64,000 nucleotides of DNA, from positions 1-64,000 of the forward strand of contig CAINLR010000131.1 of assembly GCA_903850425.1 (NCBI GenBank), written 5' to 3'. The notes below the pieces were generated by a model. It had not been told where the DNA came from and searched no databases. It worked only from the letters and a program-made list of their open reading frames with translations. Source of the stretch: an uncultured Verrucomicrobia subdivision 3 bacterium. Its GTDB lineage: Bacteria > Verrucomicrobiota > Verrucomicrobiia > Limisphaerales > UBA11358. Below are positions 10,778 through 48,071 of the stretch, one piece after another. The stretch's first letter is position 1. Each line of letters begins with the position of its first letter. The translations under genes and the position numbers were made by a program.

Positions 10778-13700
10778 ATGCCGAAAACTTCAGCCAAGAA
10801 CGGGAACGGCGCGCGGAACGGCGCGACCAAATATGATGCGCACCACAAGGTGTTGTCGCAAACTTACGGGGCTTTCGCGGACCTGCGTCGCGAGTTGTCC
10901 GATTCCAAAACCACCGTCGGCGAGCGTGAGGAAATCCTGCGAATTTTCGCGACCTGCCCCGATTCGCAGCGCGCCTGGCTCGCGCTGGAAGATTATTTTG
11001 AGAAGCTCTCGCTCTCCCGCCGCGATTTTCCACAGACGGATTGGTGGACCAAGATGCTGGCCGCCACCGGCAAAGCGCGACTGGAGGAGCTCGCGTTTTT
11101 ATTTTTGCGCGCCAAGCGTTCCGTGCCGCCCGAGTTGCAGCCGCACGCCAGCCTGGATCGTTTTGCCCAGGCGGAGGAAGTCGAACAGGAAATGCAGCTC
11201 GTGCGCGAATTGGAGAACTGGCTCTCGCCGCCCGCGCCGCTGCACCTCGACACGCCGCGCGCCACGTTGCGCGTCGTCTGTCGGCCGCAGCCGGACGAAG
11301 ATGAACCGTCGCGGCACCGACTCGAACTGCAATTTCTGCTGCTGCGTCCGCGCACGGGCGAAAAGGCGCGTTCGCTCCGGGATCTCGTGGACCTCGTCGT
11401 CCGCGCCGCGCACGAGCAGGAGTTGTTCACGCCCGCCGACTGGGAGTTCATCCAGTGGATTTATGACACGCACCGCGAACGCGCCGATGACGCCGACTCG
11501 CTGCTGCTCACCGACGCGGAGTTGCTGCAATGGCTCGCGCGCTGGGGCAACACGAGCCGGCTCGAATCTGCCGCCAATGGCCAGCCGCTGCATTTTCAAG
11601 GCGAAGTCATCGCGCTGACGCCGCATCTGGAAAACGGCACGCAGGAACTGTCCTTTACGCATCGCATCACGCTGCCGGATGGCACCATTCACTCCGTCGC
11701 CGAAGCCCGCTTTTTCAACCGCCAGTCGCCGCTCGCGCTGGTGGGCAATTCCTTTTTCCTGCTGCGCAACGCCCCGCCCGGCGGCGTGCTGAAATTTCTC
11801 GCGCAGAAACCGTCCGTGCCCGTCCGCAAGCTGAGTCATCGGCTGCTCCTGCACCTGCGCAAGTCGCAAACGAACCATGGCGTGGACTGGGACCAACTCT
11901 GCGTCGCCCACGCGGCTTCTCCGCAATTTGTTTTTGAATTGCTCGAAGACACGGTGCAGTTGCGCCTGTTCGGCAAAAGCCAGCGCGACAAATCCACCTG
12001 GATTTGGAACGGCCACGAATGGGTGCGCAGCAATAGTGGCACAGGCGTTCCGCCTGTGAGTTCCAACCCGCATCGGACTGAATCACCCGGGCGGGACGCC
12101 CACGCCACCAGCAAACCGGAGATTCTCGACGACCCGCGCCTGGATCCCGCCGTGCAATGGCTGCGCAAACTCGACTGGTTCATGCAGGAGCCCGGGCTGT
12201 GGATCGGCGATGCGAATGAAAATTTCCTCGGCTCGCTCGCCGAAGCCTGGGCGTCCAAACCGCACGACGCCGAATTTCTCGGCAACGCCGCGTTTCACCG
12301 TTTGTTCCTTACGCCGCGTCTGCTGAAGCCGCGACTCGTCGTCAAGGGCAGCGGCATTGACTGGCTCGCAGTGTCCGCGGAATGGGAAGCCGAAGGGCTG
12401 AAACTTTCCAAGACGGATCTCGAACGCCTCGCCGCCGCCACCGGGCGTTTCGTCAAATTGCCCAATGCCGGCTGGGTCGAACTCGACACCGCCGCCGTGC
12501 AGGGCGCGCACGAAGCGATGGCCGACATGGGCGTCGAGGGTCTCATCGCCGTGCCACAGAAGGTCGGCCTCGAACACATCGCGCATTTGGATGACGATGG
12601 GCTGGGCCGTTTCGCCGATTCGCCCGAAGCGATTGCGTTGCGCGAACGGGTCCGCGATTTCAAAGGCGTTCCGTCGGCGGATTTGCCGAAGATTTTGCAG
12701 GCGGATTTGCGCCCGTATCAAAAGGAAGGTTTCGATTTTCTCGCGCATCTCGTCCATGTGAAGCTTGGCGGCATTCTCGCCGACGACATGGGCCTCGGCA
12801 AAACCTTGCAGACGTTGACCTGGCTTGCGTGGCTGAAGGAACAAAACAAAAAGAATCCCAAGCCGTCGCTCGTCATCTGCCCCGCATCCGTGCTGCACAA
12901 CTGGCGGCGCGAGGCGGAGAAGTTCACGCCCGGCATGAAAGTGCTCGTGCTCGAAAGCGGTGCGGCGCGGCACAATCTGCGCAAACAAATTCCGCAGCAC
13001 GATCTCATCGTCACCAACTACGCGCTGCTCCGGCGCGATCTCGAGGAGTTCCACAAGTTCGCTTTCCGCGCCGTCATCCTTGACGAAGCGCAGTTCATCA
13101 AAAATCCCGGCGCGCAGGTCACGCAGTCCGTGAAGCAGTTGAAGTGCGAAAACAAAATCGCGCTCACCGGCACGCCGCTGGAAAATCGCCTGCTCGATTT
13201 GTGGAGCATCGTGGATTTCATCCAGCCCGGCTACCTCGGCAACCAGGAACATTTCCTCGACACCTACGAACCCAAGGGCGGCGAGAATGCCGAGTCCGCC
13301 CAGCGCATCGCGCGGCGACGTTTGTCGGCAAAGTTGCGTCCGCTGCTGCTGCGCCGCTTGAAGAAGCACGTCGCGAAAGATTTGCCGGACCGCATCGAAG
13401 AGCGCCGCGATTGTCCGCTCGGGGACGAACAGCGGAAACTTTACCTCGCCGAACTGCGCCGCAGCCGCGAACAGATCCAGACCGCCGTCGCCGAACAGGG
13501 CCTCAACAAAAGCAAGATGCACGTCCTCGCCGCGCTTACGCGTCTGCGGCAGGTGTGTTGTCATCCGTCGCTGGTCGGCAGCGACACCGCCAGCGGCAAG
13601 ACCGAGACGCTGTTTGAACTGCTCGACACGCTGGTGGCCGACGGCCAGAAAGTTTTGGTCTTCTCGCAGTTCGTGCAGATGCTGCACATCCTCGAAAAGG

Positions 13701-14101
13701 AATGTCACGCGCGCAACATCCGCACGCACATCCTCACCGGCCAGACCAAGGACCGCCAGTCGGTCGTCAACGATTTCCAGAAAGACACCGGCGCGAGCGT
13801 GTTCCTCCTGAGTTTGCGCGCGGCGGGCACCGGCTTGAACCTCACCAACGCCAGCTATGTGGTCCTCTACGATCCATGGTGGAATCCGGCGGTCGAGGCG
13901 CAGGCCATTGACCGTTCGCATCGCATCGGCCAGACGCAGACCGTCAATGCCTATCGCCTCATCGCGCCCGGCACCGTGGAGGAAAAAATCTGGGAACTAC
14001 AACAGAGCAAGGCGCAGACAATCGCCGACGTGCTCGGCGAAGAAGGCTTCGCCCGCAGCCTCACGGCGACGGACTTGGAATACTTGTTCGCCGAAGACTG
14101 A
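10778..14101 (+). CDS. SNF2-family DEAD/DEAH-box helicase
   Basis: 1107 residues. The C-terminal half is a complete Swi2/Snf2 ATPase: Walker A in DDMGLGKT (residues 669-676), motif II DEAQ (769-772), LTGTPLENRLLDLWSI, VLVFSQF, and the SNF2-specific HRIGQ (1048-1052). The N-terminal ~640 residues are the bacterial SNF2-associated region. Such proteins act as ATP-driven DNA or nucleoprotein translocases; the cellular target is unknown. Residues about 420-444 are encoded by a palindromic repeat inserted in frame. The last 18 codons recur downstream three more times, so this 3' end is a rearrangement point. Start at MPKTSAKNG. Confidence 0.9.
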   Translation: MPKTSAKNGNGARNGATKYDAHHKVLSQTYGAFADLRRELSDSKTTVGEREEILRIFATCPDSQRAWLALEDYFEKLSLSRRDFPQTDWWTKMLAATGKARLEELAFLFLRAKRSVPPELQPHASLDRFAQAEEVEQEMQLVRELENWLSPPAPLHLDTPRATLRVVCRPQPDEDEPSRHRLELQFLLLRPRTGEKARSLRDLVDLVVRAAHEQELFTPADWEFIQWIYDTHRERADDADSLLLTDAELLQWLARWGNTSRLESAANGQPLHFQGEVIALTPHLENGTQELSFTHRITLPDGTIHSVAEARFFNRQSPLALVGNSFFLLRNAPPGGVLKFLAQKPSVPVRKLSHRLLLHLRKSQTNHGVDWDQLCVAHAASPQFVFELLEDTVQLRLFGKSQRDKSTWIWNGHEWVRSNSGTGVPPVSSNPHRTESPGRDAHATSKPEILDDPRLDPAVQWLRKLDWFMQEPGLWIGDANENFLGSLAEAWASKPHDAEFLGNAAFHRLFLTPRLLKPRLVVKGSGIDWLAVSAEWEAEGLKLSKTDLERLAAATGRFVKLPNAGWVELDTAAVQGAHEAMADMGVEGLIAVPQKVGLEHIAHLDDDGLGRFADSPEAIALRERVRDFKGVPSADLPKILQADLRPYQKEGFDFLAHLVHVKLGGILADDMGLGKTLQTLTWLAWLKEQNKKNPKPSLVICPASVLHNWRREAEKFTPGMKVLVLESGAARHNLRKQIPQHDLIVTNYALLRRDLEEFHKFAFRAVILDEAQFIKNPGAQVTQSVKQLKCENKIALTGTPLENRLLDLWSIVDFIQPGYLGNQEHFLDTYEPKGGENAESAQRIARRRLSAKLRPLLLRRLKKHVAKDLPDRIEERRDCPLGDEQRKLYLAELRRSREQIQTAVAEQGLNKSKMHVLAALTRLRQVCCHPSLVGSDTASGKTETLFELLDTLVADGQKVLVFSQFVQMLHILEKECHARNIRTHILTGQTKDRQSVVNDFQKDTGASVFLLSLRAAGTGLNLTNASYVVLYDPWWNPAVEAQAIDRSHRIGQTQTVNAYRLIAPGTVEEKIWELQQSKAQTIADVLGEEGFARSLTATDLEYLFAED
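12035..12108. repeat. Palindromic element inserted in frame in the helicase gene
   Basis: The left half AGTGGCACAGGCG-TTC-CGCCTGTG (12035-12058) is itself a hairpin. The right half contains CGGGCGGGACGCCCACGCCAC (12088-12108). GTGGC and GCCAC form the outer ends. It is read through as GTGVPPV ... GRDAHATS without breaking the frame. The peptide is low-complexity and lies between the N-terminal region and the motor domain, where an insert would be tolerated. Confidence 0.75.
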
Positions 14102-14118
14102 CGCACGAAGACGCTTTT

Positions 14119-14216
14119 GTAGCACCCGCCTCCGGCGGGTCTCAAGCCGGCGTCTCGCCGGATTGCGCGGGCCCACGGCTCGAATTGTCATCGGGGCCTC
14201 CGCGAAGCAAGCGTTT
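14119..14216. repeat. Truncated copy of a GTAGCACC-ended palindromic element
   Basis: The sequence begins GTAGCACCCGCCTCCGGCGG and follows the two full copies at 15157-15314 and 18362-18518 for about 98 bp, with scattered substitutions. It then stops at GGCTTCGCC, where it joins directly to a second copy of the helicase 3' end. In the full copies the corresponding bases are GGGTTCGCC, so the junction lies in a short shared sequence. The right terminal repeat is missing. Confidence 0.75.
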
Positions 14217-14273
14217 GGCTTCGCCCGCAGCCTCACGGCGACGGACTTGGAATATCTGTTTGCGGAGGATTAA
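14217..14273 (+). pseudogene. Second copy of the helicase 3' end (18 codons plus stop)
   Basis: This 57-bp copy encodes exactly the same peptide as the real end of the helicase at 14045-14101 (GFARSLTATDLEYLFAED). The first 36 bases are identical. In the last seven codons, stop included, every codon differs and every change is synonymous (TAC/TAT, TTG/CTG, TTC/TTT, GCC/GCG, GAA/GAG, GAC/GAT, TGA/TAA). That pattern means this end was once under protein-level selection, so it is likely the stranded end of an older or paralogous helicase allele. Confidence 0.8.
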
Positions 14274-14309
14274 TCCGAAGCTTGCAACAGGCCAAAGGTG
14301 AATTGCAAT

Positions 14310-14337
14310 TTGACAATAGTAACCTAAATGATACTTT
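14310..14337 (+). promoter_or_regulatory. Candidate promoter of the toxin-antitoxin pair
   Basis: TTGACA at 14310-14315 is followed after 16 bp by TACTTT (14332-14337), in a locally AT-rich stretch unlike the GC-rich surroundings. The toxin start is about 105 bp downstream, after AAAGGAAAAAATG. The -10 match is weak. Confidence 0.35.
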
Positions 14338-14441
14338 CACTCTGCGTAGTGAACCGAGGTTCGCGCCCGAACGGCGGACGGAAAATTCCACCGCAACAGA
14401 CAACGAAAGGAAAAAATGAAAAATCAAAAAACTAAAAAAAT

Positions 14442-14768
14442 ATGGAAACGGCATTTGAAATTAAGGAATACGTTGAATCTGGAAATTCACCTTTCGCAGA
14501 CTGGTTCGATGCACTCGATGCCGTAACCGCTGCACGCGTTGACAAATACGTTCGCCGACTTGAAGCGGGAAATTTTGGCGCAGCGAAAGCGCTTCAAGAA
14601 GGAGTTTCAGAACTGAAATTAGATTTTGGACCCGGCTACCGGGTTTATTTTGGACGAGACGGAAAGACGATCATCATTTTATTGGGCGGCGGCAGCAAGC
14701 GCCGACAATCCGCTGACATAGCAGCCGCCATCGAGCGCTGGAAGAAATACAAACAAACAAAGAATTAA
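14442..14768 (+). CDS. RelE/ParE-superfamily toxin (HigB/Gp49-like)
   Basis: 108 residues, typical for the family. Features are FADWFDALDAVTAARV near the N-terminus, LKLDFGPGYRVYFGRDG, and ILLGGGSKRRQSADIAAA, which match the addiction-module killer / phage Gp49-like subgroup of RelE toxins. These act as ribosome-dependent or free mRNA endonucleases. The antitoxin gene starts one base after its stop, giving the toxin-first order of HigBA-type modules. Another ATG at 14416, right after a good AAAGGA box, opens a 36-codon frame overlapping the toxin start; it could influence toxin translation. The module lies between two copies of the helicase 3' end, suggesting it was inserted there. Confidence 0.85.
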   Translation: METAFEIKEYVESGNSPFADWFDALDAVTAARVDKYVRRLEAGNFGAAKALQEGVSELKLDFGPGYRVYFGRDGKTIIILLGGGSKRRQSADIAAAIERWKKYKQTKN

Positions 14769-14769
14769 C

Positions 14770-15087
14770 ATGGCCCTGACCCGAGAATACAAAGCGACCG
14801 TCCTCGCCCGCATCAAACGCGATCCGAAGTTTGCAAAAGCGTTGTATGCCGAGGCCGTCAACGCGCTGCTTGAAGGCGAAACAGACGAAGGTCTTTCCAT
14901 GCTGCGCGACCTGGTTCATGCCGGCATCACTTTCAAGGAACTCTCAAAACAGACCGGCTTGGGCGAAAAAACTCTGCATCGCATGTTGAGCCCGCGCGGC
15001 AATCCCACTACCCGCAATTTATTCACCGTCACGAAGGCTATTTGTGAAAGCATGGGAATCACGCCGCAATGCAAGTTTGCCGTTTAA
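14770..15087 (+). CDS. Helix-turn-helix antitoxin (HigA-like)
   Basis: 105 residues. The N-terminal part (YKATVLARIKRDPKFAKALY ...) resembles addiction-module antidote proteins that wrap the toxin. The C-terminal part has an HTH: GITFKELSKQTGLGEKTLHR, then PTTRNLFTVTKAI. It should neutralise the upstream RelE-like toxin and repress the shared promoter. It is separated from the toxin by a single base, so the two are translationally coupled. A third copy of the helicase 3' end begins four bases after its stop. Confidence 0.85.
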   Translation: MALTREYKATVLARIKRDPKFAKALYAEAVNALLEGETDEGLSMLRDLVHAGITFKELSKQTGLGEKTLHRMLSPRGNPTTRNLFTVTKAICESMGITPQCKFAV

Positions 15088-15091
15088 GAAT

Positions 15092-15139
15092 CACAGCCTC
15101 ACGGTGACGGATTTGGAATGTCTCTTCGCCGAAGACTGA
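15092..15139 (+). pseudogene. Third copy of the helicase 3' end
   Basis: The frame reads SLTVTDLECLFAED followed by TGA, against SLTATDLEYLFAED in the helicase. The bases after the stop (TGACGCGTGACAACGC...) match those after the real helicase stop and lead into the palindromic element, so the unit copied is gene end plus downstream element. There are two amino-acid changes and no upstream coding region. Confidence 0.75.
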
Positions 15140-15156
15140 CGCGTGACAACGCTGGT

Positions 15157-15314
15157 GTAGCACCTGCCTCCGGCGGGTCTCAATTCGGCGTCCCGCCATA
15201 TTGCGCGGGCCCAGCGGCCTAGATTGGCATCGCTGCCTCCGCGAAGAAAGCGTCTGGGTTCGCCACGCGTTTCGGGTGCGACGCCCCAAACTACCCGCGC
15301 GACGCGGGTGCTAC
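15157..15314. repeat. Full palindromic element with GTAGCACC/GGTGCTAC ends
   Basis: 158 bp with terminal inverted repeats (GTAGCACC at 15157-15164; GGTGCTAC at 15307-15314) and inner palindromes such as CGCGACGCGGG. It is nearly identical to the copy at 18362-18518. It encodes no transposase, so any movement would need an enzyme supplied in trans; MITE-like or REP-like are the two fair descriptions. Confidence 0.75.
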
Positions 15315-15338
15315 ATGAATCGTTTCACATGAACAGCT

Positions 15339-18215
15339 TCAAGCCGATGTAGCGTTGCTGCGTCCGCGCTTTCTCGACTTGAAGTAGGCAAAAGCGAAGG
15401 GCGATCCCGCCAGCAATCCCAGGAAGACGCCGGCCACCGCGCCGAGAAACATGTTTTTGTCCTTGTTCGGCTTCACCGGCGCTTTTCCAGGTTCGGCCGG
15501 GTCGGTGATTTGCACGAGTGAAGTCTTTGGCATTTCCAAGGCCAGCTTCTCGGCCTGCATTTTGGCGAAGCGGGTCTTATGCGCTTCGAGGATTTGGTCC
15601 AGATTGCGCTTTCTATCCGCAAAATCTTTTTCGTCCGGCGAAGGGTTGGCCGGACTATCACTCCCGGGTCTGATCTTCTGCCGCGACTCATCCATGCCGG
15701 CCTGCACTTGCTGAATCTGTGTTTCCTCGTCCGCATACTGTTTCTCCACCGCCTTGAGCGCGGCGCTTTGGGTTGCCTGAAGCGATTCCAGCCGGAACTT
15801 CTTATAGCCAACCGCCATGGCATTGGCGATTGCGGCGGCCTCATTTCTGTCATCGCTGTAAGCCGTGATCGTCACCAGCATGGTGTTCCGCATTTGGGCA
15901 AGGCGGAGGCGGGCTTTTAGCATTTCCATCAGCTGGCTCGTCTCGAGTGCCTCAAGGTCAAAATGTTTTTTGCCCCACTCCACATTCAAGTTCAGCGCCG
16001 CGATGACGTTGCTCAGAACCACTGGCGACTGCAAGTTCGTCAGCGTGGTCTGGATGCAAGGCAGGTCATAAGCGTCCGCGCCTTGAACCGGATAGTCCGG
16101 CTCCAAGCTGTCCGGTTTTACTTTGACGCGAGCTGTGCTGGCCCAACTTTTTGGCAATGATAAAGTGATGATAACACTCGACATCAGCACCAACAAAAAC
16201 ACCGTGATGAAAACCCCGAAAAACGCCGACAGCGGTGAGGTGGGGCGGTTTGATGGCGCGGAGGTATCGTCGGGCATTTCAATCTCCACTCCCGAGGTTG
16301 CGGCACAATCTTCACACCAACGATTCCAATACTTGTGGACGAAAAAAACGGCCCCGGACCCAGCTAGCAACCCCAGGATGGCGCCTTTAATCACGCCCAA
16401 GAAAATATCCACCGGCTTGTTCGGCCGCACCGGCTCTCTTCCGGGTTCGGCGCGGTCGGTGATTTGCACTAGCGAAGTTTTTGGCATTTCCAAGGCCAGC
16501 CGTTCCGCTTGAATTCTGGAAAAGAGGTTGTTATGCGCTTCGAGGATTTGGTCCAAATGGCGCCTTCTATCCGCATACAGTTTTTCGTCTGGCGATGCGT
16601 TGGCCGAACTATCACTCCCGGGTCTGATCTTCTGCCGCAACTCCTCTATGCCGGCCTGAACTTGCTGAAGCTGTGCTTGCTCCTGCGCATACTGCCGCTC
16701 CATGGCTTGAAGCGTGGAACTTAGCTTGGCTTGGATGGATTCCCACCGGAACTTCTGGTAGGCATCCGCGATCGCATTGGCGATCATGGCGGCTTCCTTC
16801 TTGTCATCGTTGTAACTATTGATCCATATCAGCATGGTGTTCGTCTTCGGAGCAAGCCAGATGCGGCCTCTGAGAATTTCCATCGTCTCGCGGGTCTTCA
16901 GTGTTTCACCGTTAAAGAACTTTTTGCCCCACTCCACATTCAAGTTCAGCGTCGCGATGACGTTGCTCAGAACCAGTTGCGACTCCATCACCGCTATCGT
17001 CGTCCGGATGAAATGCGGATCGTATGCCTCGGACCCCAGCGCCGGATTATCCGGCTCCAAGCTGTCCGGTTTTACCTGGATGCGTGCCGTGCTGCCATAC
17101 TGCTCAGGCAAAATAAAAGTGACGGCGACACTCGCCATCACCACCAACAGAAACACCACTGTGGACACTCCCCAAAAAACCTTCGGGAGGGAGCGGCGCG
17201 GCCTGGCCAAGGCGGAAGTTGCGCCGTGTGGAGGCGGACGGCACAGCCCGGAGCCACTCGCACTGTCAATGTTCATCCCCTGATTGTCGCTCGGACGGGA
17301 AAGCGACATCGCCCGCAGTTTCGCCGTGACGAACTTGCAGAAAACGCGGGCGACTCCCGCCATCAACCCCAAAAAAACGCCGGCCGCCAAGCCAACAAAT
17401 AGGCTCATTTTCATTCTCGGCTTCACTGGGACCAGGCCGGGTTTGGCGGTCTCGGTGATTTGCACGAACGCCGTTTGGGGTTTTTGCAGAGCCAATTGCC
17501 CAGCCTCGATTTTTGACCGGAGCAGCTTGTGACCATCGAGCATTTGGGACAATGCCTGTTGCTTTTCCCAGTAGGGCTGTCCTTGTGGTGCCGGACTGGC
17601 GTTGGTCTCACCGCCTACGTTGAGCCTTTGGCGTAGCGCTTCCACTTCAGATTCGACGCCGTGGACTCGGTCCGCTTGAGTTTTGTATTGCTGCTCCAAC
17701 ACTGCCATTCCTTTCGCGATCAAGTTCGAGTAAGTTTTGACGCGGTAATCCCGGTAACATTCGGCGACGGCATTGGCGATCTGTGCCGCCTCCTTTGGAT
17801 CGGCGCTGTAAACCGTGATGTCAACGAGGTTAGTATTGCAAACCGGAGCGATCTCCAGCCAACCCTTGAGAATCGCCATCGCCTCATTGGTCCTCAGCGT
17901 CTCACCATTAAAAAATTTCTTACCCCACACAACATTCAGCTTCAGCCTTTCTACGACCAAATCGAGAACCACCTGGGATTGGATGATTTCAATCGCTGTC
18001 TGGATGACATACGGATCATCAGCCACCTGCTTAGCCACTGGGGGTGCATCGGATTCGACTTTGATGCGGGCGGTGCTGGCATACTGCTCCGGCAAAATAA
18101 ATGTGATGACGACACTCGCCATCACCACCAGCAAAAACACCACGGTGAACACACCAAAAAATGCGGTCCAGAGCGAGCGGAGGCGTCTTGGCGGGGCGGG
18201 AGTGGCGTCGGGCAT
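15339..18215 (-). CDS. Triple-fused Wzz-type polysaccharide co-polymerase protein
   Basis: 958 residues made of three tandem, complete chain-length-determinant modules: about 1-313, 314-646 and 647-958. Each has an N-terminal membrane helix (for example FFGVFTVVFLLVVMASVVIT), a periplasmic segment starting with STARI(K/Q)V, an NLNVEWGKKFF-like motif, a coiled-coil region, a proline-rich stretch (EPGREPVRPNKP) and a second helix (LGLLAG). Wzz proteins control O-antigen or exopolysaccharide chain length and normally hold one such module. No tyrosine-kinase domain is attached. The start at 18215 (MPDATPAPPRR) is chosen because upstream codons are an antisense reading of a repeat. Modules 2 and 3 also begin with Met, so internal initiation is possible. 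Confidence 0.8.
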   Translation of the reverse strand: MPDATPAPPRRLRSLWTAFFGVFTVVFLLVVMASVVITFILPEQYASTARIKVESDAPPVAKQVADDPYVIQTAIEIIQSQVVLDLVVERLKLNVVWGKKFFNGETLRTNEAMAILKGWLEIAPVCNTNLVDITVYSADPKEAAQIANAVAECYRDYRVKTYSNLIAKGMAVLEQQYKTQADRVHGVESEVEALRQRLNVGGETNASPAPQGQPYWEKQQALSQMLDGHKLLRSKIEAGQLALQKPQTAFVQITETAKPGLVPVKPRMKMSLFVGLAAGVFLGLMAGVARVFCKFVTAKLRAMSLSRPSDNQGMNIDSASGSGLCRPPPHGATSALARPRRSLPKVFWGVSTVVFLLVVMASVAVTFILPEQYGSTARIQVKPDSLEPDNPALGSEAYDPHFIRTTIAVMESQLVLSNVIATLNLNVEWGKKFFNGETLKTRETMEILRGRIWLAPKTNTMLIWINSYNDDKKEAAMIANAIADAYQKFRWESIQAKLSSTLQAMERQYAQEQAQLQQVQAGIEELRQKIRPGSDSSANASPDEKLYADRRRHLDQILEAHNNLFSRIQAERLALEMPKTSLVQITDRAEPGREPVRPNKPVDIFLGVIKGAILGLLAGSGAVFFVHKYWNRWCEDCAATSGVEIEMPDDTSAPSNRPTSPLSAFFGVFITVFLLVLMSSVIITLSLPKSWASTARVKVKPDSLEPDYPVQGADAYDLPCIQTTLTNLQSPVVLSNVIAALNLNVEWGKKHFDLEALETSQLMEMLKARLRLAQMRNTMLVTITAYSDDRNEAAAIANAMAVGYKKFRLESLQATQSAALKAVEKQYADEETQIQQVQAGMDESRQKIRPGSDSPANPSPDEKDFADRKRNLDQILEAHKTRFAKMQAEKLALEMPKTSLVQITDPAEPGKAPVKPNKDKNMFLGAVAGVFLGLLAGSPFAFAYFKSRKRGRSNATSA

Positions 18216-18292
18216 AGGCCGACTGCATAACCCAAGTTGATTTAACAAGCAATCTTCATCACCAATTTTCAATCTGGTTGGTAAACGGCCGC

Positions 18293-18342
18293 GCCCGCAG
18301 CCACGCGGCGACGCACTTGGAAAATTGGTTTGCAGAAGATAG
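18293..18342 (+). pseudogene. Fourth, degenerate copy of the helicase 3' end
   Basis: The frame reads RSHAATHLENWFAED, against RSLTATDLEYLFAED in the helicase, and the stop has become part of a serine codon (GAT AGC). It is again followed by the palindromic element. It is the most diverged copy and probably the oldest or least constrained. Confidence 0.65.
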
Positions 18343-18361
18343 CCACGCAAAAATCGCTTGG

Positions 18362-18518
18362 GTAGCACCCGCCTCCGGCGGGTCTCAATTCGGCGTCCCG
18401 CCATATTGCGCGGGCCCACGGCTCGAATTGGCATCGCTGCCTCCGCGAAGAAAGCGTCTGGGTTCGCCACGCGTTTCGGGCGCGACGCCCGAAATTACCC
18501 GCGCGACGCGGGTGCTAC
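18362..18518. repeat. Second full palindromic element with GTAGCACC ends
   Basis: 157 bp from GTAGCACCC (18362-18370) to GGGTGCTAC (18510-18518). Apart from a few substitutions it matches the copy at 15157-15314. As in that copy, a Wzz-type gene ends about 25 bp beyond it, so element and gene end were duplicated together. Confidence 0.77.
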
Positions 18519-18542
18519 CGGAGTCATTTCACGCGACTCGCT

Positions 18543-19721
18543 TCAAGCCGCCGCAATGTTATTTCGTCCGCGATTTCCCAGCTTGGCGGCGAGTAACGCC
18601 GAAGCGCCGCCGGCCATCAGCCCCAGAAAACCGCCGGCCACCACGCCGATCACAATGTTCAACGGCTTGTTCGGTTTCACCGGTGCGCGACCCGGTTCGG
18701 CGGTGTCGGTGATTTGCACGAGCGGATCTATTGGAATCGCTATGGCCAATTTTATAGTTGTGATTTTGGCATAGATTGCGTCTTGCGTTTCAAGCAATCC
18801 ATCCAAATGCTTTTTCTTATCCCAATAAGCCTGCTCCTGCGGCGATGGATTGTCAGAAATTTCACTTCCAGTTTTTAATGGCTGCGGCAATAAATTTAGC
18901 GCGGCGCGAGTTTGCTCGATTTGCTTTTCATTCTGCTGATAATCCTGTTGCAACTTTGCCAGGCTAGGTGCCGCCAGTGCGGCAGCGGCTTTTACGCGAT
19001 AATCCCGGTAAGCTTCCGCGATGGTATCGGCAATCTGCGCCGCCTCGTTGCGATCATCGCTGTAAATCGTGATGGCAATGAGCTTGGTATCATGCCAGGT
19101 CTCGAGCTTAAGTCGTTGTTTGAGAATTTTCATCGTTTCACTGCTCTTTAAAGTCTCGCCAGCAAAGTATTTTTTACCCCACTGCACATTTAAATTCAGT
19201 TTGTCGACAACCGGTTCGAGCACGAGTTGAGATTCGATTACTTCCATCGCCGTCCAGATGTAATTGCGGCCACCGGAAACTAGGCCGGTGGCGGGTGACG
19301 CATCCGCTTCCACCTTGATGCGTGCCGTGCTGGCATAAGTCTCCGGCAAAATAAATGTAATCAGCGTGGCGGCGATGACGGTGATCAAAAACACCGCGAT
19401 GAAGACGCGGATGAAGATGGCGGTGGGCGTCGTGCGGTCGCTCGATAGACTGGCAATTTTTTCATTCATAGATTTTCTCTCTTTCAAAGCGGCGAGCCGT
19501 TCCTGAATGGACGTGCTCACCAAATCCGGCAGCACGCGTAGCCAGAGTTTGGTCAGGCCCCAGCCGCGAGCTTCATTCCATTCGTCGCGGCATTGATCGC
19601 GGAATAATTGCGCCATCGCCAGGCCATATTCCGCGCGATGCGCCGGCGGATACGCCCGCAGCAGCCAGGCGTAAACCTGTTGCGAAACCGTCAGCGCGCG
19701 ATGGTTGAAAGGATCGGCCAT
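18543..19721 (-). CDS. Wzz-type membrane protein with an N-terminal permease-prefix-like domain
   Basis: 392 residues. The N-terminal ~80 residues (YAWLLRAYPPAHRAEYGLAM, LFRDQCRDEW) resemble the short prefix found in front of MacB/FtsX-like permeases that are often paired with PadR regulators. The rest is one Wzz module: membrane helix at about 100-125 (IFIRVFIAVFLITVIAATL), YASTARIKVEAD, NLNVQWGKKYF, a coiled coil, APVKPNKPLN and a second helix (VAGGFLGLMAGGASALLA). It begins three bases after the PadR stop, so the pair is translationally coupled. A Met at the second segment (MNEKIASLSS) could give a shorter Wzz-only product. Confidence 0.72.
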   Translation of the reverse strand: MADPFNHRALTVSQQVYAWLLRAYPPAHRAEYGLAMAQLFRDQCRDEWNEARGWGLTKLWLRVLPDLVSTSIQERLAALKERKSMNEKIASLSSDRTTPTAIFIRVFIAVFLITVIAATLITFILPETYASTARIKVEADASPATGLVSGGRNYIWTAMEVIESQLVLEPVVDKLNLNVQWGKKYFAGETLKSSETMKILKQRLKLETWHDTKLIAITIYSDDRNEAAQIADTIAEAYRDYRVKAAAALAAPSLAKLQQDYQQNEKQIEQTRAALNLLPQPLKTGSEISDNPSPQEQAYWDKKKHLDGLLETQDAIYAKITTIKLAIAIPIDPLVQITDTAEPGRAPVKPNKPLNIVIGVVAGGFLGLMAGGASALLAAKLGNRGRNNIAAA

Positions 19722-19724
19722 GAT

Positions 19725-20087
19725 TCAGGCGGGTTTGCGGATGAGCTTTTTCCCGCGCGCCAGTTCCACAATCGCCGCGTAACGCTGCGCCTCGGCCCGG
19801 ACCACCTGTTCGCCCACGCCCGTGAGCCGGTAATAGCGCCGGCGCTCATCGTCCAAATGCGGATCGGGGCGCTCGTCCGATTCCTCGATCAACTGCGCTT
19901 CGAGCAGGCGCTTGATCGTGCCATACAAAGTCCCCGGCCCCAGTTTGATCTGGCCATCGGTGTGCTCCGCCACCTCCTGCATGATGGCGTAACCGTGGCG
20001 TTCGCCGCCCGCCAGCGCGAGCAGCACATGAAACACCGCCGGCGTGAGCGGCAGCAAACTACCGGGATCGGTCTGGGGCTTTGCCAT
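19725..20087 (-). CDS. PadR-family transcriptional regulator
   Basis: 120 residues. The winged-helix signature is clear: LTPAVFHVLLALAGGERHGY, IKLGPGTLYGTIKRLLEA, then the wing DDERRRYYRLTGVGE. PadR proteins are dimeric repressors that respond to ligands or stress. It is the first gene of a two-gene unit with the Wzz-type protein and probably controls it. I start at 20087 (MAKPQTDPGS); the frame stays open upstream but reads into intergenic sequence. Confidence 0.9.
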   Translation of the reverse strand: MAKPQTDPGSLLPLTPAVFHVLLALAGGERHGYAIMQEVAEHTDGQIKLGPGTLYGTIKRLLEAQLIEESDERPDPHLDDERRRYYRLTGVGEQVVRAEAQRYAAIVELARGKKLIRKPA

Positions 20088-20261
20088 TTTAACGGATGTA
20101 TCGGTTGCGGATATATTTAACCAAAGGCGCATTTCTGTCAACCTCGTTTTGAAAACCAGCGCGGAGAAGTTGCCAAAGGGCCTGGCAGGTGGCGCGTGAC
20201 GCGTGACGCGCGCAGCGGCACGGGCCACGGGTCACCCGGCACCTCGCCGTCGGGCGCGGGT

Positions 20262-43004: not shown

Positions 43005-45359
43005 TTATTTTGCCGAAGCCTTGAACGAAATCTCGGTGCTTTGCAACCCCGGCGCAGTCGCCGACAAAATAATTTTGCCCTTCGCGGCCGTCGCCTTCAC
43101 AAACGCTACACCCTCGCCTTGGAACGCGCGGCGTTCGCTCGCTTGAAACGGCTCGTGGCTGATGGTGTCGCCGCTGTCCACGCACGCGATGACGCCGGGG
43201 CCGGAAATTTTGAATGACATCAAATTGTCCGCGCGCGGCACGGTGCTGCCGTCCGCATCCACAACCCGGGCGCGCACGATGGCCACCTCGTCCCACGTTG
43301 GTGAAAGTTTTTTGGTTTCTGAGGACAAAATAATTTTCCTCGCCGCGCCGGCGGTTTTCAATTCATCGGCGGCGACAATTTTTCCGTTTTGATTTTTCGC
43401 CACCGCCTTCAACGTTCCGGCCGCAAATGCAACTTTCCAAATGCGCGGCGACGCATCGCGATTAATTTTTTTCGCACCGAGCGATTTGCCGTTGAGGAAC
43501 AGCTCCACTTCCTCGCAGTTGGAATAAGCCTCCACCGTTTCATCGTGCGGCGCGGGATTGCGCGAGGTCCAATTAGCAAACTCCACCTGCGTGTGCAATT
43601 CCTCGCCGCCGTAGCCGGGATCCGTCGGCATCCGGTCGTCCGGCGCAGTGCGGCGCATGATGCGGACCATCGGCGCATCGCTCCACCAGCTTTGGCGCTC
43701 GAACGACCTCGACTTCACGGCACCCGTGCGGTCGAGCAAACCGGAAGAATGATTCACGACGGGCCAGCGGCGTGATTCGCCGAGATAATCCACGCCGGTC
43801 CAGAGGAATTGCCCGGCGTGCGACGGATTGTCGCGCAGCCAGAGCCACGTCTCCCGATCATGCCGCTGTTCCGTGCCGACAATTTTCCGCGAGGGTTTGG
43901 CCCGTTGCGCGGCGAGCAGTTCATTGTCGCGATAATTTGTGCCGACCACGTCAAGCAAATCCGCGAGGCCGTTGTCGTAATCGTGGCTCACGTTGGGGCG
44001 GAACAACGCCTGGGTGACGGGACGCGTCGGGTCGTTCTCGTGGCAGACTTGCACGAGGTTGCTGGCAATCGGAATCGCTATTTCCGGCTTGGGCGTATCG
44101 TGGATTTCATTGCCGATGGAATAAAGGATCACGCTTGGATGATTGCGGTCGCGGCGCACGGTGTCGGCGGCGTCAATCTTCGACCAGTCATTGAAAAACA
44201 GGTGATAGTCGAAGGGATTTTTGGCGACCGTCCAGCAGTCGAACAATTCGTCCATCACGAGAAAGCCCATGCGATCGCACAAATCCAGAAACTCCGGCGC
44301 GGGTGGATTATGCGCGGTGCGGATGGCGTTCACGCCAAGTTTGCGCAATTCATTCAGGCGCTGCTCCCAAATCGAAAGCGGCACCGCCGCGCCAAATGCG
44401 CCGCCGTCGTGGTGCAGGCAGACGCCGTAGAGCACCACTTTATTACCGTTGAGCACGAAGCCTTGGTTGGCGGTGAATTCAGCCGAGCGGATGCCGAAGG
44501 TGTTTGTCACGCAGTCCAAAACTTTTTTGCCAGCGCGCACTTCGCTGACGATGGAATAAAGCCTGGGGTCGTTCAGCTTCCAAAGCTGCGGATGGGAAAT
44601 GATGATCCGGTCCGAGAGCTTTTCCGAAACCCCGGCGATGATTTCTGCGCCCATCTCGGCGCCCGCGACCGTTGTTCCGTCCGGCGTGACCATCTGTGTC
44701 ACCAGAGAGATTTTGTGTTTGAAAGCGGAAGCATTGGTAATGGTGGTCACAATTTCCACCGTTGCCTGCTTCGCGGAAATTTCCGGCGTGGCAATAAACA
44801 CGCCGTTCTCCGCGATATGAATTGCATCCGTCACCATGAGCCGGACATGCCGGTAAATGCCCGCGCCCGAATACCACCGCGACGCCGGCTGCGCCGACGT
44901 GTCCGCGCGGACGGCGAGGACGTTGTCGTCGCCGAAATTCAAGTGGCCGGTGAGTTCGTAGCTGAAGCTGACGTAACCACTCGGGCGCTGGCCGAGGTGA
45001 AAACCGTTGATCCACACGTCGCTGTTTTGCATCACGCCGTCAAACTCCACTCGCACACGGCTGCCGGAATCACTTTTCGGCAGCGTAAAATGTTTCCGAT
45101 ACCAACCGATGCCGCTGGGCAGAAACGCGCCTGCGCCGCCGGTTTTATTAGTCTCGGCAAACGGACCCTCGATGCTCCAATCATGCGGCACATCCAGTTT
45201 GCGCCAGTTGCCATCGGCAAATTGCGGCTGTTCCGCGCCGGGCGCATCGGTTTTGAGAAAGCGCCAGTCGCGGTCAAAGGATGCAGCATTCGCCAAACCG
45301 ACTGTGGTAGCGAGGGCGAGACAGGCCAAAAGTGCCGCTGTAACTGTTTTAGCTTCCAT
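43005..45359 (-). CDS. Beta-galactosidase-like glycoside hydrolase, GH2 (first)
   Basis: 784 residues, signal peptide (LLACLALATTVGLANA). Domain order: sugar-binding jelly roll (FDRDWRFLK, VPHDWSIEGPF), Ig-like domain, TIM barrel (GVCLHHDGGAFG, AIRTAHNPPAPEFLDLCDRM), DUF4982 and a C-terminal beta domain (GPGVIACVDSGD). Acid/base is Glu418 in SIGNEIHD; the nucleophile is likely Glu497 in VGTEQRHD. Beside GH53 it probably releases galactose from galactan oligosaccharides; beta-glucuronidase or other GH2 specificity cannot be excluded. The next gene starts two bases after its stop. Confidence 0.88.
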   Translation of the reverse strand: MEAKTVTAALLACLALATTVGLANAASFDRDWRFLKTDAPGAEQPQFADGNWRKLDVPHDWSIEGPFAETNKTGGAGAFLPSGIGWYRKHFTLPKSDSGSRVRVEFDGVMQNSDVWINGFHLGQRPSGYVSFSYELTGHLNFGDDNVLAVRADTSAQPASRWYSGAGIYRHVRLMVTDAIHIAENGVFIATPEISAKQATVEIVTTITNASAFKHKISLVTQMVTPDGTTVAGAEMGAEIIAGVSEKLSDRIIISHPQLWKLNDPRLYSIVSEVRAGKKVLDCVTNTFGIRSAEFTANQGFVLNGNKVVLYGVCLHHDGGAFGAAVPLSIWEQRLNELRKLGVNAIRTAHNPPAPEFLDLCDRMGFLVMDELFDCWTVAKNPFDYHLFFNDWSKIDAADTVRRDRNHPSVILYSIGNEIHDTPKPEIAIPIASNLVQVCHENDPTRPVTQALFRPNVSHDYDNGLADLLDVVGTNYRDNELLAAQRAKPSRKIVGTEQRHDRETWLWLRDNPSHAGQFLWTGVDYLGESRRWPVVNHSSGLLDRTGAVKSRSFERQSWWSDAPMVRIMRRTAPDDRMPTDPGYGGEELHTQVEFANWTSRNPAPHDETVEAYSNCEEVELFLNGKSLGAKKINRDASPRIWKVAFAAGTLKAVAKNQNGKIVAADELKTAGAARKIILSSETKKLSPTWDEVAIVRARVVDADGSTVPRADNLMSFKISGPGVIACVDSGDTISHEPFQASERRAFQGEGVAFVKATAAKGKIILSATAPGLQSTEISFKASAK

Positions 45360-45386: not shown

Positions 45387-48002
45387 TTACGGCTGCGCGG
45401 CAATCTGCGTCTTCGCTGCCTTCAGTCCATCAGCGTGGGCCGTGAGCGTGATTTTACCGGGCGAATTTGCACAGACGATGACGAGCGCAAGACCGTTGTA
45501 GGCATTGCGTTCCTTGGCTTGAAACGATTCGAAGCTGGTGGCGTCGCCGTTGTCCACCGCCACGATTTCGCCCGGTCCTTCGATTTCAAACTGGATGTGA
45601 TTCTTCGAGCGCGGCACGAGTTGGCCTTTGGCGTCGGCCACCGTCACGGTCACATACGACAAATCTTTTCCATCCGCTGTGATTTTTGCGCGGTCGGCTT
45701 TCAGCGTGAGTGCCGATGCCAGGCCGGTGGTGCGCACCACGTCGGTCGCCCATTTTTTGCCGTTCTTGTAGGCGACAACCTTGAGTTCGCCCGGCGCGTA
45801 TTTCACGTCATCCCAGCGCAGGCGATATTCGAACTGGCCTTTCGTTTTCCGACCGAGCGATTTGCCGTTGAGAAATAATTCCGCCGCATCACCGCTCGTA
45901 TAAACATGGACGGGCGTGATCTCGCCCTCGCGGCCCGGCCAGTTCCAATGCGGCAGGATGTGCGCCATCGGGAACTCTGGCCGCCAGTGCGCCTGATAAA
46001 GGTAGTAGCGATCTTTGGGAAAGCCCGCGAGGTCAATGATGCCAAAATAGCTGCTGCGCGACGGCGTGCGGATCTTGCCGATGGCGGCGAGTTCCTTTTC
46101 CGCGCGGGCCTTGTCCTCGGGATTGGAATAGTTGTTCAGGTTGCTCAAGTCCGAGTTGTAAGGCGTCGGCTCGCCGAGGTAATCAAAACCGGTCCAGACA
46201 AATTCGCCCGCGACCGACGGGTTTGCATCCTGGCCCTTGAATTCCGCGTCCGGAGTCGTCGCCCAGGGCGGCGCGTAAAGGTCATAGCTGCTCATCTGAA
46301 AATCCGCCAGTCCCTTGGACTTGTTATCGCTCACGGGGAAAAAATATTCGCCACGCGAACTGATGGTGGACGCCGTCTCGCTGCCAAACAGGGGAATGGT
46401 CGGATTCGCGGCGCGGAATCTGGCATACCCGAACGGTTTGTAGTTGTAGCCGAACACGTCCACGATTTTTTGAAAGCCGTTGAAGCCGGCGTTGGCGTTA
46501 TTGCACGCCGCCGTCACGCCGCGCGTCGGGTCTTCGGAGTGGACGATGTCCGCAAGATCATGCGCGATGTAAAAACGATTCGTGTTGCCCTGCTCGCTAA
46601 TTTCGTTGCCAATGCTCCACAGAATCACGCACGGATGATTCCGGTCGCGGCGAATGAGCATCCGCGTGTCGGCCTCGTGCCAGTCGCCGAAAAGCAGGTG
46701 GTAATCATTCGGCTTCTTCTGCGACCGCCAGCAATCAAATGTCTCATCCATCACCACAAAACCCATTTTATCGCACAGTTCGAGCAGTTCCGGCGCGGGC
46801 GGATTATGGCTGGTGCGGATGGCGTTGCCGCCCATGCCGCGCAAAATTTCCAACTGCCGTTCGAGGCCGCGCGTGTTGACCGCACTGCCGAGCGCGCCCA
46901 GGTCTGCATGATCGCAAACGCCGTTGAGCCGCACGCGTTCGCCGTTCAAAAGAAAACCATTGTCCGCCGTAAATTGAATCGTGCGGATGCCAAACGGCGT
47001 TTCATAAACGTCCACAACTTTTCCGCCCTGCGCAATCGTCGTGACCGCAACGTAGCGGTTCGGATGTTCGACGCCCCACAGTTTCGGGTTGGGAATCATG
47101 ATGGTCTGCGCCGTATCCGTCGTTGCGCCAGCGGCGATCTTAATTCCATCAGTTCCAATTTCAGCGACGGCATTTTTTGATTTCGCGCCGTCGGCCTTGA
47201 GTTCAAAAATCGCCGTCGCCACTTTCACTTCAGCTTCGGCGGCGGAATTGTTATCCACGCTGGTTCGCAGCGAAATGGTCGCGGCATCCTGGCTGACCTG
47301 CGGCGTGGTGATATATGTGCCCCAATGGCCGACGTGGACCGGCGAAGTTTTCGTGAGCCAGACGTTGCGGTAAATGCCGCCGCCCGGATACCAGCGCGAG
47401 GAGTCTTTGGGATTGTCGAGTCGGATGGCGAGCGTGTTCGCGCTGCCGAACTTCACGAACGGCGTCAGGTCCACGCGCCACGACGCGTAACCGTAAGGCC
47501 AGCCGCCGGCGCAATGACCGTTGATCCACACTGTCGCGTAAGCCATCGCGCCGTCCACATCGAGATAAAGCTGCTTGCCCGCGTCGCCCGCCGGCACGTC
47601 GAAGTGCTTGCGATACCACACGACACCGAACCACGGGAGCTTGCCGGTTTCGCCGGGCAACGCCTGTGCGAACGGCCCTTCGATGCCAAAGTCATGCGGC
47701 AGATTTAATTTGCGCCAGCCGCTGTCATCGAAGCCGGTTTGCGCAAAGGAAACGTCATCGCCAAAGTTCTCCGTCGGCCGCGCGAACGGCGCGTTGGTGG
47801 TGAATGCGTTTTGCGTCGGCAAAATCCACGCCCGCGCGGCGGCGTAATCGAGCCTTGTGCCCGCCGCAGGATCGCCTTTGGTGAAGCGCCAGTTGGCATT
47901 CAGCGATTCCTTGACGCGGTTATTTTGCGCCGAAGCGTTGATGGCTGGCAGCACCAAAGCAAAAGCCAGGGCGACGAACGAGAGGGTGGGCGTGAATTTC
48001 AT
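45387..48002 (-). CDS. Beta-galactosidase-like glycoside hydrolase, GH2 (second)
   Basis: 871 residues from MKFTPTLSFV, with a signal peptide (ALAFALVLPAINASAQ). Jelly-roll domain (NANWRFTKGD, LPHDFGIEGPF, WINGHCAGGWPYGYASW), barrel with GVCDHADLGALGSAV and AIRTSHNPPAPELLELCDKM, and C-terminal DUF4982/beta domains. Acid/base is Glu467 in SIGNEISEQ; nucleophile Glu542 in FGSETAS, the classical form. It is a paralogue of the GH2 genes on either side but not a recent copy. Its 5' leader resembles that of the third GH2 gene. Confidence 0.9.
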   Translation of the reverse strand: MKFTPTLSFVALAFALVLPAINASAQNNRVKESLNANWRFTKGDPAAGTRLDYAAARAWILPTQNAFTTNAPFARPTENFGDDVSFAQTGFDDSGWRKLNLPHDFGIEGPFAQALPGETGKLPWFGVVWYRKHFDVPAGDAGKQLYLDVDGAMAYATVWINGHCAGGWPYGYASWRVDLTPFVKFGSANTLAIRLDNPKDSSRWYPGGGIYRNVWLTKTSPVHVGHWGTYITTPQVSQDAATISLRTSVDNNSAAEAEVKVATAIFELKADGAKSKNAVAEIGTDGIKIAAGATTDTAQTIMIPNPKLWGVEHPNRYVAVTTIAQGGKVVDVYETPFGIRTIQFTADNGFLLNGERVRLNGVCDHADLGALGSAVNTRGLERQLEILRGMGGNAIRTSHNPPAPELLELCDKMGFVVMDETFDCWRSQKKPNDYHLLFGDWHEADTRMLIRRDRNHPCVILWSIGNEISEQGNTNRFYIAHDLADIVHSEDPTRGVTAACNNANAGFNGFQKIVDVFGYNYKPFGYARFRAANPTIPLFGSETASTISSRGEYFFPVSDNKSKGLADFQMSSYDLYAPPWATTPDAEFKGQDANPSVAGEFVWTGFDYLGEPTPYNSDLSNLNNYSNPEDKARAEKELAAIGKIRTPSRSSYFGIIDLAGFPKDRYYLYQAHWRPEFPMAHILPHWNWPGREGEITPVHVYTSGDAAELFLNGKSLGRKTKGQFEYRLRWDDVKYAPGELKVVAYKNGKKWATDVVRTTGLASALTLKADRAKITADGKDLSYVTVTVADAKGQLVPRSKNHIQFEIEGPGEIVAVDNGDATSFESFQAKERNAYNGLALVIVCANSPGKITLTAHADGLKAAKTQIAAQP

Positions 48003-48068
48003 GTGGAATTTGACGGCCAGTATCCCGCAAAGGTGACAGCGGCACAAGTCACCCGAACTGTGGATGGC
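48003..48068 (-). promoter_or_regulatory. Leader block shared by two GH2 genes (copy 1)
   Basis: Read on the minus strand, GCCATCCACAGTT is followed by CTGTCACCTTTGCGGGATAC and a CGTCAAA before the ATG. The same blocks in the same order precede the third GH2 gene (50475-50551). This may be a promoter/operator or simply sequence kept from the gene duplication. Confidence 0.45.
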
Positions 48069-48071
48069 CGC

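Follow-up and report, generated by a model that had tools for sequence, protein, structure and literature searches.

To our knowledge, it is poorly understood how chromosomal toxin-antitoxin (TA) pairs move when no plasmid or phage carries them. Restriction-modification systems, in work by Nobusato in 2000 and Furuta in 2010, were reportedly found to insert with a long and variable duplication of the target. Integron gene cassettes are compact cargo in one direction, with the newest in front of the older; the loci described here share this arrangement, but they dock at a core-gene end that differs from case to case. Excerpts from two papers on restriction-modification systems describe long, variable target duplications, which these excerpts do not state for other TA systems (PMC3874152, PMC3031569). 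Measured against the same excerpts, our loci are alike in their small addiction-type cargo, in direct target repeats of about 100 bases and in having no known mobile element tied to them, but differ in that the cargo consists of TA and TIR genes and the target is mostly the same-strand 3′ end of a core gene. For the type VI effector-immunity arrays of Vibrio cholerae, the available part of one report proposes homology-facilitated illegitimate recombination and names integron cassettes as a parallel (PMC5361080). There, as far as this part goes, a conserved gene anchors the incoming cargo, old 3′ parts are moved downstream and cassettes stack, as they do here; however, the anchor is a toxin gene cluster and the old effector is replaced, whereas here unrelated core genes stay functional. 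According to an excerpt on Dickeya dadantii, dhiTA, a DUF4160/DUF2442 pair, is among three type II TA systems of that species (PMC8198452), and the same domain pair is found here as cargo at gltX and in one relative, G010; the excerpt makes no mention of repeats flanking dhiTA. A search of published titles and abstract openings found nothing on TA pairs bracketed by duplicated core-gene ends. What is new here is the generality of the picture, with TA pairs bracketed by displaced core-gene ends at many loci of a genus and with two further families at the helicase site.

The window, a stretch of 64,000 nucleotides from an uncultured Verrucomicrobia subdivision 3 bacterium, contains the target core gene of the locus, an SNF2-family helicase gene of 1107 amino acids (10778–14101, plus strand; PF00176, PF00271). 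The helicase query was matched in 59 of 59 genomes searched, and the named records with a helicase 81–88% identical are labelled Verrucomicrobia (one 'subdivision 3'), Limisphaerales and, in one case, Methylacidimicrobium. The 3′ end of this gene occurs four times on the plus strand: copy 1 inside the gene (14045–14101; direct-repeat family D8), copy 2 leading into a TA pair (14217–14273; from the repeat comparison), copy 3 as a displaced end that starts a few bases past the antitoxin stop codon (15092–15139), and copy 4 at the opening of the second of two duplicated blocks (18287–18342). Aligned in register to 14045–14097, the stretches 14217–14269, 15083–15135 and 18287–18339 are 91%, 70% and 81% identical, and the last 120 bases of the helicase, used as a query, retrieved the three downstream copies at E-values of 1e-15, 2e-11 and 6e-11; both the alignment and this tail search confirm the four direct copies claimed in an earlier note on this DNA. 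When the 229-base stretch 14045–14273 was compared with the whole genome, it matched at three places, all within the helicase locus. The stop codon terminates copies 1, 2 and 3, and copy 4 is without an in-frame stop. A fifth, weak likeness inside the wzz gene (17309–17337; 79% of 29 bases) is near chance.

A truncated hairpin element (14112–14216, plus strand; repeat families D9 and D12) lies between copy 1 and copy 2 and meets the latter at a 9-base likeness (8/9). This junction is consistent with a short-homology event. The first 24 compared bases of copy 2 are those of copy 1, and the last 24 agree with it in 17; over these last positions copy 2 resembles some other genomes more closely (up to 23/24). 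From these comparisons, copy 2 looks like a mosaic.

Between copies 2 and 3 lie a toxin-like gene of the Gp49 family (14442–14768, plus strand; PF05973, 25.1 bits at a cut-off of 23.9) and an antitoxin-like HTH gene (14770–15087, plus strand; HTH_26, PF13443, 24.9 bits at a cut-off of 22); a match to dnstrm_HI1420 (PF21716) was below cut-off. With adjacent toxin and antitoxin domains on one strand, the two genes form a putative TA pair of the Gp49/HI1420 type. Pfam domains likewise bear out the contents that had been assigned to the two intervals, namely a TA pair in the interval from copy 2 to copy 3 and a triple-Wzz gene in that from copy 3 to copy 4. Relatives of the antitoxin are present in 13 of the 49 genus genomes. 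Bracketing repeats were not found around four relatives of the window's TA elsewhere (G028, G022, G009 and G064), and the class is therefore not uniform. In G009 and G064 (L081, L082), the TA relatives stand, by our reading, directly behind the C-terminal end of a putative tyrosine recombinase.

How does the helicase locus look in related genomes? The sample holds one genome per species, and for this reason no young insertion was seen. The window's TA stands behind the helicase in G000, G024 and G030, and the antitoxin of that TA in G021 and G060; in G021, G024, G060 and G030 the antitoxin is accompanied by a displaced helicase end. The toxin gene of G024 is split across two frames, and a helicase-end copy lies a few bases past the antitoxin stop codon (91% over 46 bases); G021 has kept the antitoxin and the toxin is gone; G060 has a stop inside the antitoxin and, by our reading, at most a remnant of the toxin; G030 has both TA genes plus an assembly gap; and G022 has a short partial end copy and no TA. 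Within one clade, then, the helicase-end TA is seen in stepwise decay (L055, L060, L079 and L059, in G024, G021, G060 and G022), the stages being toxin frameshift, toxin loss, antitoxin stop and a partial end copy alone. In the tree, which left out G030, these four genomes form a clade with G031 (95/93), and G000, G027 and G010 form another (95/84). The sister genome G027 has no TA, cargo, end copy or Wzz gene within about 8.5 kb behind the helicase. In G001 and G026, Wzz and then PadR follow directly behind the helicase, at 31 and 469 bases, with no end copy between.

We surveyed 116 helicase-like 3′ ends, among them a few paralogues; 44 belong to the genus, and 98 are followed by 3 kb of sequence or more. 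At eight of these ends the tail recurs in a copy that extends to within 4 bases of the end of the stop codon, and the remaining own-tail matches listed stop at other points of the tail; the cases in G030 and G133 were identified apart from this survey. A pattern search in 320 genomes gave a match in 147 and two or more in 7, and the two matches in G110 are on separate contigs and are followed by unlike sequences.

The same helicase stop codon is followed by other cargo in further genomes. In G010, DUF4160 and DUF2442 genes and a third ORF that matches no Pfam family precede a helicase-end copy, which is nearer to G027 (43/48) than the in-gene end is (40/48); a short flank likeness between this displaced copy and the G027 helicase was noticed by eye and is not claimed. 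In G126, which belongs to another family, RelB and YafQ genes (34.2 and 108.9 bits) are followed by a degenerate end copy (67% over 54 bases), Wzz and PadR, and in G147 two TIR_2 genes are flanked by helicase ends with 98 of 100 bases in common. The cargo has the same orientation as the helicase in G000, G024, G030, G021, G060, G010, G126 and G147. The cargo of G133 comprises a HEAT-repeat ORF and two ORFs that match no Pfam family, and beyond it stands a longer partial helicase; a full helicase was not found in this assembly, and the cargo was not recognised as TA. The contig concerned (L120) starts exactly at a helicase end, and the partial helicase, more than 500 bases about 3.9 kb on, is a longer displaced copy than at other loci, with the non-TA cargo between. 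Core-gene ends are recurrently occupied by different small cargo with displaced ends, and relatives lack them. For the helicase, insertion at the gene end, as the earlier note had it, agrees with relatives that show other cargo, no cargo, or Wzz and PadR directly behind the gene, and a static old duplication, with the same four copies and cargo clade-wide, was not seen in 44 genus loci.

We then considered TA loci at large, taking three TA-related families (PF10387, PF05973 and PF15738) in the 49 genus genomes. The family searches gave 77 loci, with the best 30 at most per search, and the 61 with at least 3 kb entered the comparison. Among these best matches, direct repeats bracket the TA in 19 of 61 loci and inverted repeats in 0 of 61. 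Control windows, which overlap and were drawn from helicase neighbourhoods and the window rather than from matched accessory genes, gave direct repeats in 9 of 232, three of the nine being helicase-TA events, and inverted repeats in 1 of 232. Fisher's test of 19/61 against 9/232 gives p = 1.5e-8, a descriptive figure only, since neither the homologous loci nor the overlapping windows are independent. Among the matches listed, the bracketing rate is 14/23 for PF10387, 4/13 for PF15738 and 1/25 for PF05973, so that the low-rate family is the window's own toxin family, Gp49.

The repeats are about 36–180 bases long, variable in length and locus-specific, and they are mostly core-gene 3′ ends (gltX, purQ-like, aspS, trpA, hisB, dus). 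Locus specificity was compared for 24 loci from a looser scan of 85, with L240, L256, L257 and L262 dropped as distant or short. One common attachment sequence was not found among them, as repeats of different genes do not match each other; exceptions are loci that share a gene and the two epimerase loci, which resemble each other over 39 bases. For the classification of the repeats 23 loci were used, with the hairpin-rich L235 dropped, and 5 of the 23 are unclassified (L225, L250, L267, L269 and L276); members of repeated gene sets were assigned by likeness. With the TA strand as reference, 12 of the 18 classified loci repeat the 3′ end of an intact same-strand upstream gene: gltX three times, a purQ-like glutamine amidotransferase three times, and aspS, an aldehyde dehydrogenase, hisB (IGPD), dus, a GHMP kinase and trpA. 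Two of the 18 are convergent 3′ ends (a DinG-like helicase and an ABC transporter). The TA is thus on the gene's strand in 12 of the 14 loci at 3′ ends (p = 0.006), or 8 of 10 when counted by distinct gene. The displaced copy lies at most 50 bases past the end of the last cargo ORF in 15 of 18 loci, and no ORFs of more than 170 amino acids are listed inside the 18 cassettes. The remaining 4 of 18 (L206, L211, L212 and L260) have a gene 5′ end, not a 3′ end, repeated around the TA, the genes being an epimerase, a second epimerase (by reading), rsmB/F and an N-acetylglutamate-synthase-like gene.

The gltX gene served as a second test locus, with 40 ends, 32 of them with at least 2.9 kb behind. 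A displaced own copy is present at 5 of the 40 (G000, G013, G019, G064 and G066), the repeats stopping 7–16 bases short of the stop codon, and partial gltX ends are also found on other contigs of G026 and G070. A DUF4160-DUF2442 cassette stands behind gltX in G000 and G013 (89% over 466 bases); its second half is common to G019, a 73% stretch is found in G022, and in G025 the flank, 37 bases long, starts similarly, as judged by eye. On the 3′ side of gltX in G019 (L282), two cassettes are stacked, the first common to G008 and G069 and the second (DUF2442) to G000 and G013. Compared with G001, the gltX tail of G013 is 95% identical in its displaced copy and 88.5% in the gene. Both tails of G000 are near G001 (displaced 93% and in-gene 96%), which indicates the opposite of import or nothing. 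Import of the end was supported in 1 of the 5 genomes by this test, G019, G064 and G066 being uninformative.

In these loci the core gene is intact, and direct repeats of its tail stand on either side of the cargo. We think that the TA pair of the window was probably acquired horizontally as a module with a gene end, that it entered by homology-assisted recombination, and that the native end was displaced. Such a module would consist of a core-gene 3′ end and a compact TA pair directly behind it. Its entry would keep or renew the end of the gene and push the native end behind the cargo, hence a whole gene and a cargo between tail repeats. The likeliest route would be recombination of the incoming with the resident copy of a conserved gene end; the far junction could be made by illegitimate joining or by a single crossover of a circle, and no recombinase of the module's own would be needed. 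Our analysis suggests that TA pairs can enter chromosomes without one. Recombination between the copies could plausibly delete or amplify the cargo, and addictive or defensive cargo might then withstand loss through recombination between the repeats. Several results count against this module explanation: judged from tail identities, imported ends appear indicated in G013 and, weakly, in G010 only, and there are the 5′-end repeats (4/18), the convergent loci (2/18), the strand bias of no more than 8/10 by distinct gene, the family-dependent rate among the matches listed, the four relatives of the window's TA without bracketing repeats and the cargo of G133, which is not recognised as TA.

A further step would be that TA cassettes perpetuate themselves without a recombinase: host recombination would free a circle of gene end and TA, the circle would re-insert at the same gene in another cell, and addiction would punish loss. 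We consider this step unlikely; if it were true, core-gene ends would be distributed docking sites for TA and defence cargo. Could addiction protect cargo that is otherwise lost between repeats? The displaced gene ends allow this question to be asked, as they are readable scars from which entry site, orientation, donor and age become measurable.

Another explanation is that the TA pairs insert in a transposon-like manner with a long staggered cut, so that both repeats come from the same genome. Long, variable repeats (about 36–180 bases) around addiction-type genes are what the excerpts on restriction-modification systems describe (PMC3874152, PMC3031569), long direct repeats of the target bracket the helicase cargo and the 19 of 61 TA loci among the best matches listed, and the ends in G147 are nearly identical (98/100). 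Arguments against such a duplication are the bias towards core-gene 3′ ends and a single strand, the recurrence of one cassette behind gltX in several species, and the mosaic copy 2, but none of them is decisive. We regard it as possible, though on the unlikely side.

Gene ends are classical attachment sites of integrases, and displaced helicase copies often begin about 40–57 bases before the stop codon. Both points would suit an integrase, of the tyrosine or another type, that targets gene 3′ ends site-specifically and is now lost or acts in trans. However, no Phage_integrase (PF00589) gene was found near the helicase in the nine genomes searched, and the only PF00589 genes on helicase contigs lie at distances of about 160 kb in G000 and 41 kb in G021. 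Moreover, the targets are many and unrelated, the repeat lengths vary and some repeats are 5′ ends. A reading as an integrase target site has lost ground because the repeats occur at unrelated genes and the nine genomes searched have no PF00589 gene near the helicase, and we now consider it very unlikely; the classical integrating element that the earlier note had in mind is not supported, as the same picture is seen at many unrelated genes.

The module explanation accounts for the TA interval, and a separate event is seen further downstream. Hairpin elements stand behind copy 3 (15150–15315, plus strand; D9, I5) and copy 4 (18355–18529, plus strand; D9, I1); with the truncated one there are three copies, placed between convergent helicase and Wzz genes, with arms GTAGCACCCGCC.../...GGGTGCTAC. 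That the hairpin is a dispersed element was rejected, as a genome search with the first copy gave matches in the helicase locus only. On the minus strand follow a triple-Wzz ORF of 1043 amino acids (15339–18470), with three Wzz and three GNVR stretches and a true start that is probably near 18216, a single Wzz gene (18543–19721; PF02706, PF13807) and a PadR-family gene (19725–20228; PF03551). The last two are native neighbours of the helicase, the single Wzz gene being placed as in G001, G026 and G126. Internal repeats spaced about 954–996 bases in the triple-Wzz ORF indicate a triplication of the Wzz domain inside a single gene. Both Wzz genes do end just beyond a hairpin element, as had been claimed. 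The block of copy 3, hairpin and Wzz is colinear with that of copy 4, hairpin and single Wzz over about 0.9 kb, at an offset of 3204–3205 bases as far as about 16.0 kb and of 3192 bases further on, and one alignment across the two blocks covers 906 bases at 67%. This colinearity indicates that copies 3 and 4 arose by tandem duplication of the end, hairpin and Wzz block, separately from the TA insertion. In the window, the duplication would have multiplied this block to give copies 3 and 4, with the Wzz domain triplicated. The four helicase-end copies have two origins, TA insertion for copies 2 and 3 and block duplication for copies 3 and 4, and the two readings offered in the earlier note divide accordingly: insertion with the end restored stands for the TA pair, and tandem duplication for copies 3 and 4. 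That all four copies came from duplication of a block with the helicase end, the TA being incidental, is most improbable: it is true of copies 3 and 4, and a 172-base duplication or a deletion at the 9-base likeness could account for copies 1 and 2, but the sequences behind copies 2 (TA) and 3 (hairpin) are unrelated and relatives have a displaced copy and other cargo without the duplicated block, which contradicts it for the TA interval.

Further direct repeats in the window, at about 43777–44882 and 47354–49223, are 42–54 bases long, 83–86% identical and about 2.5–5 kb apart, and are perhaps paralogous genes.
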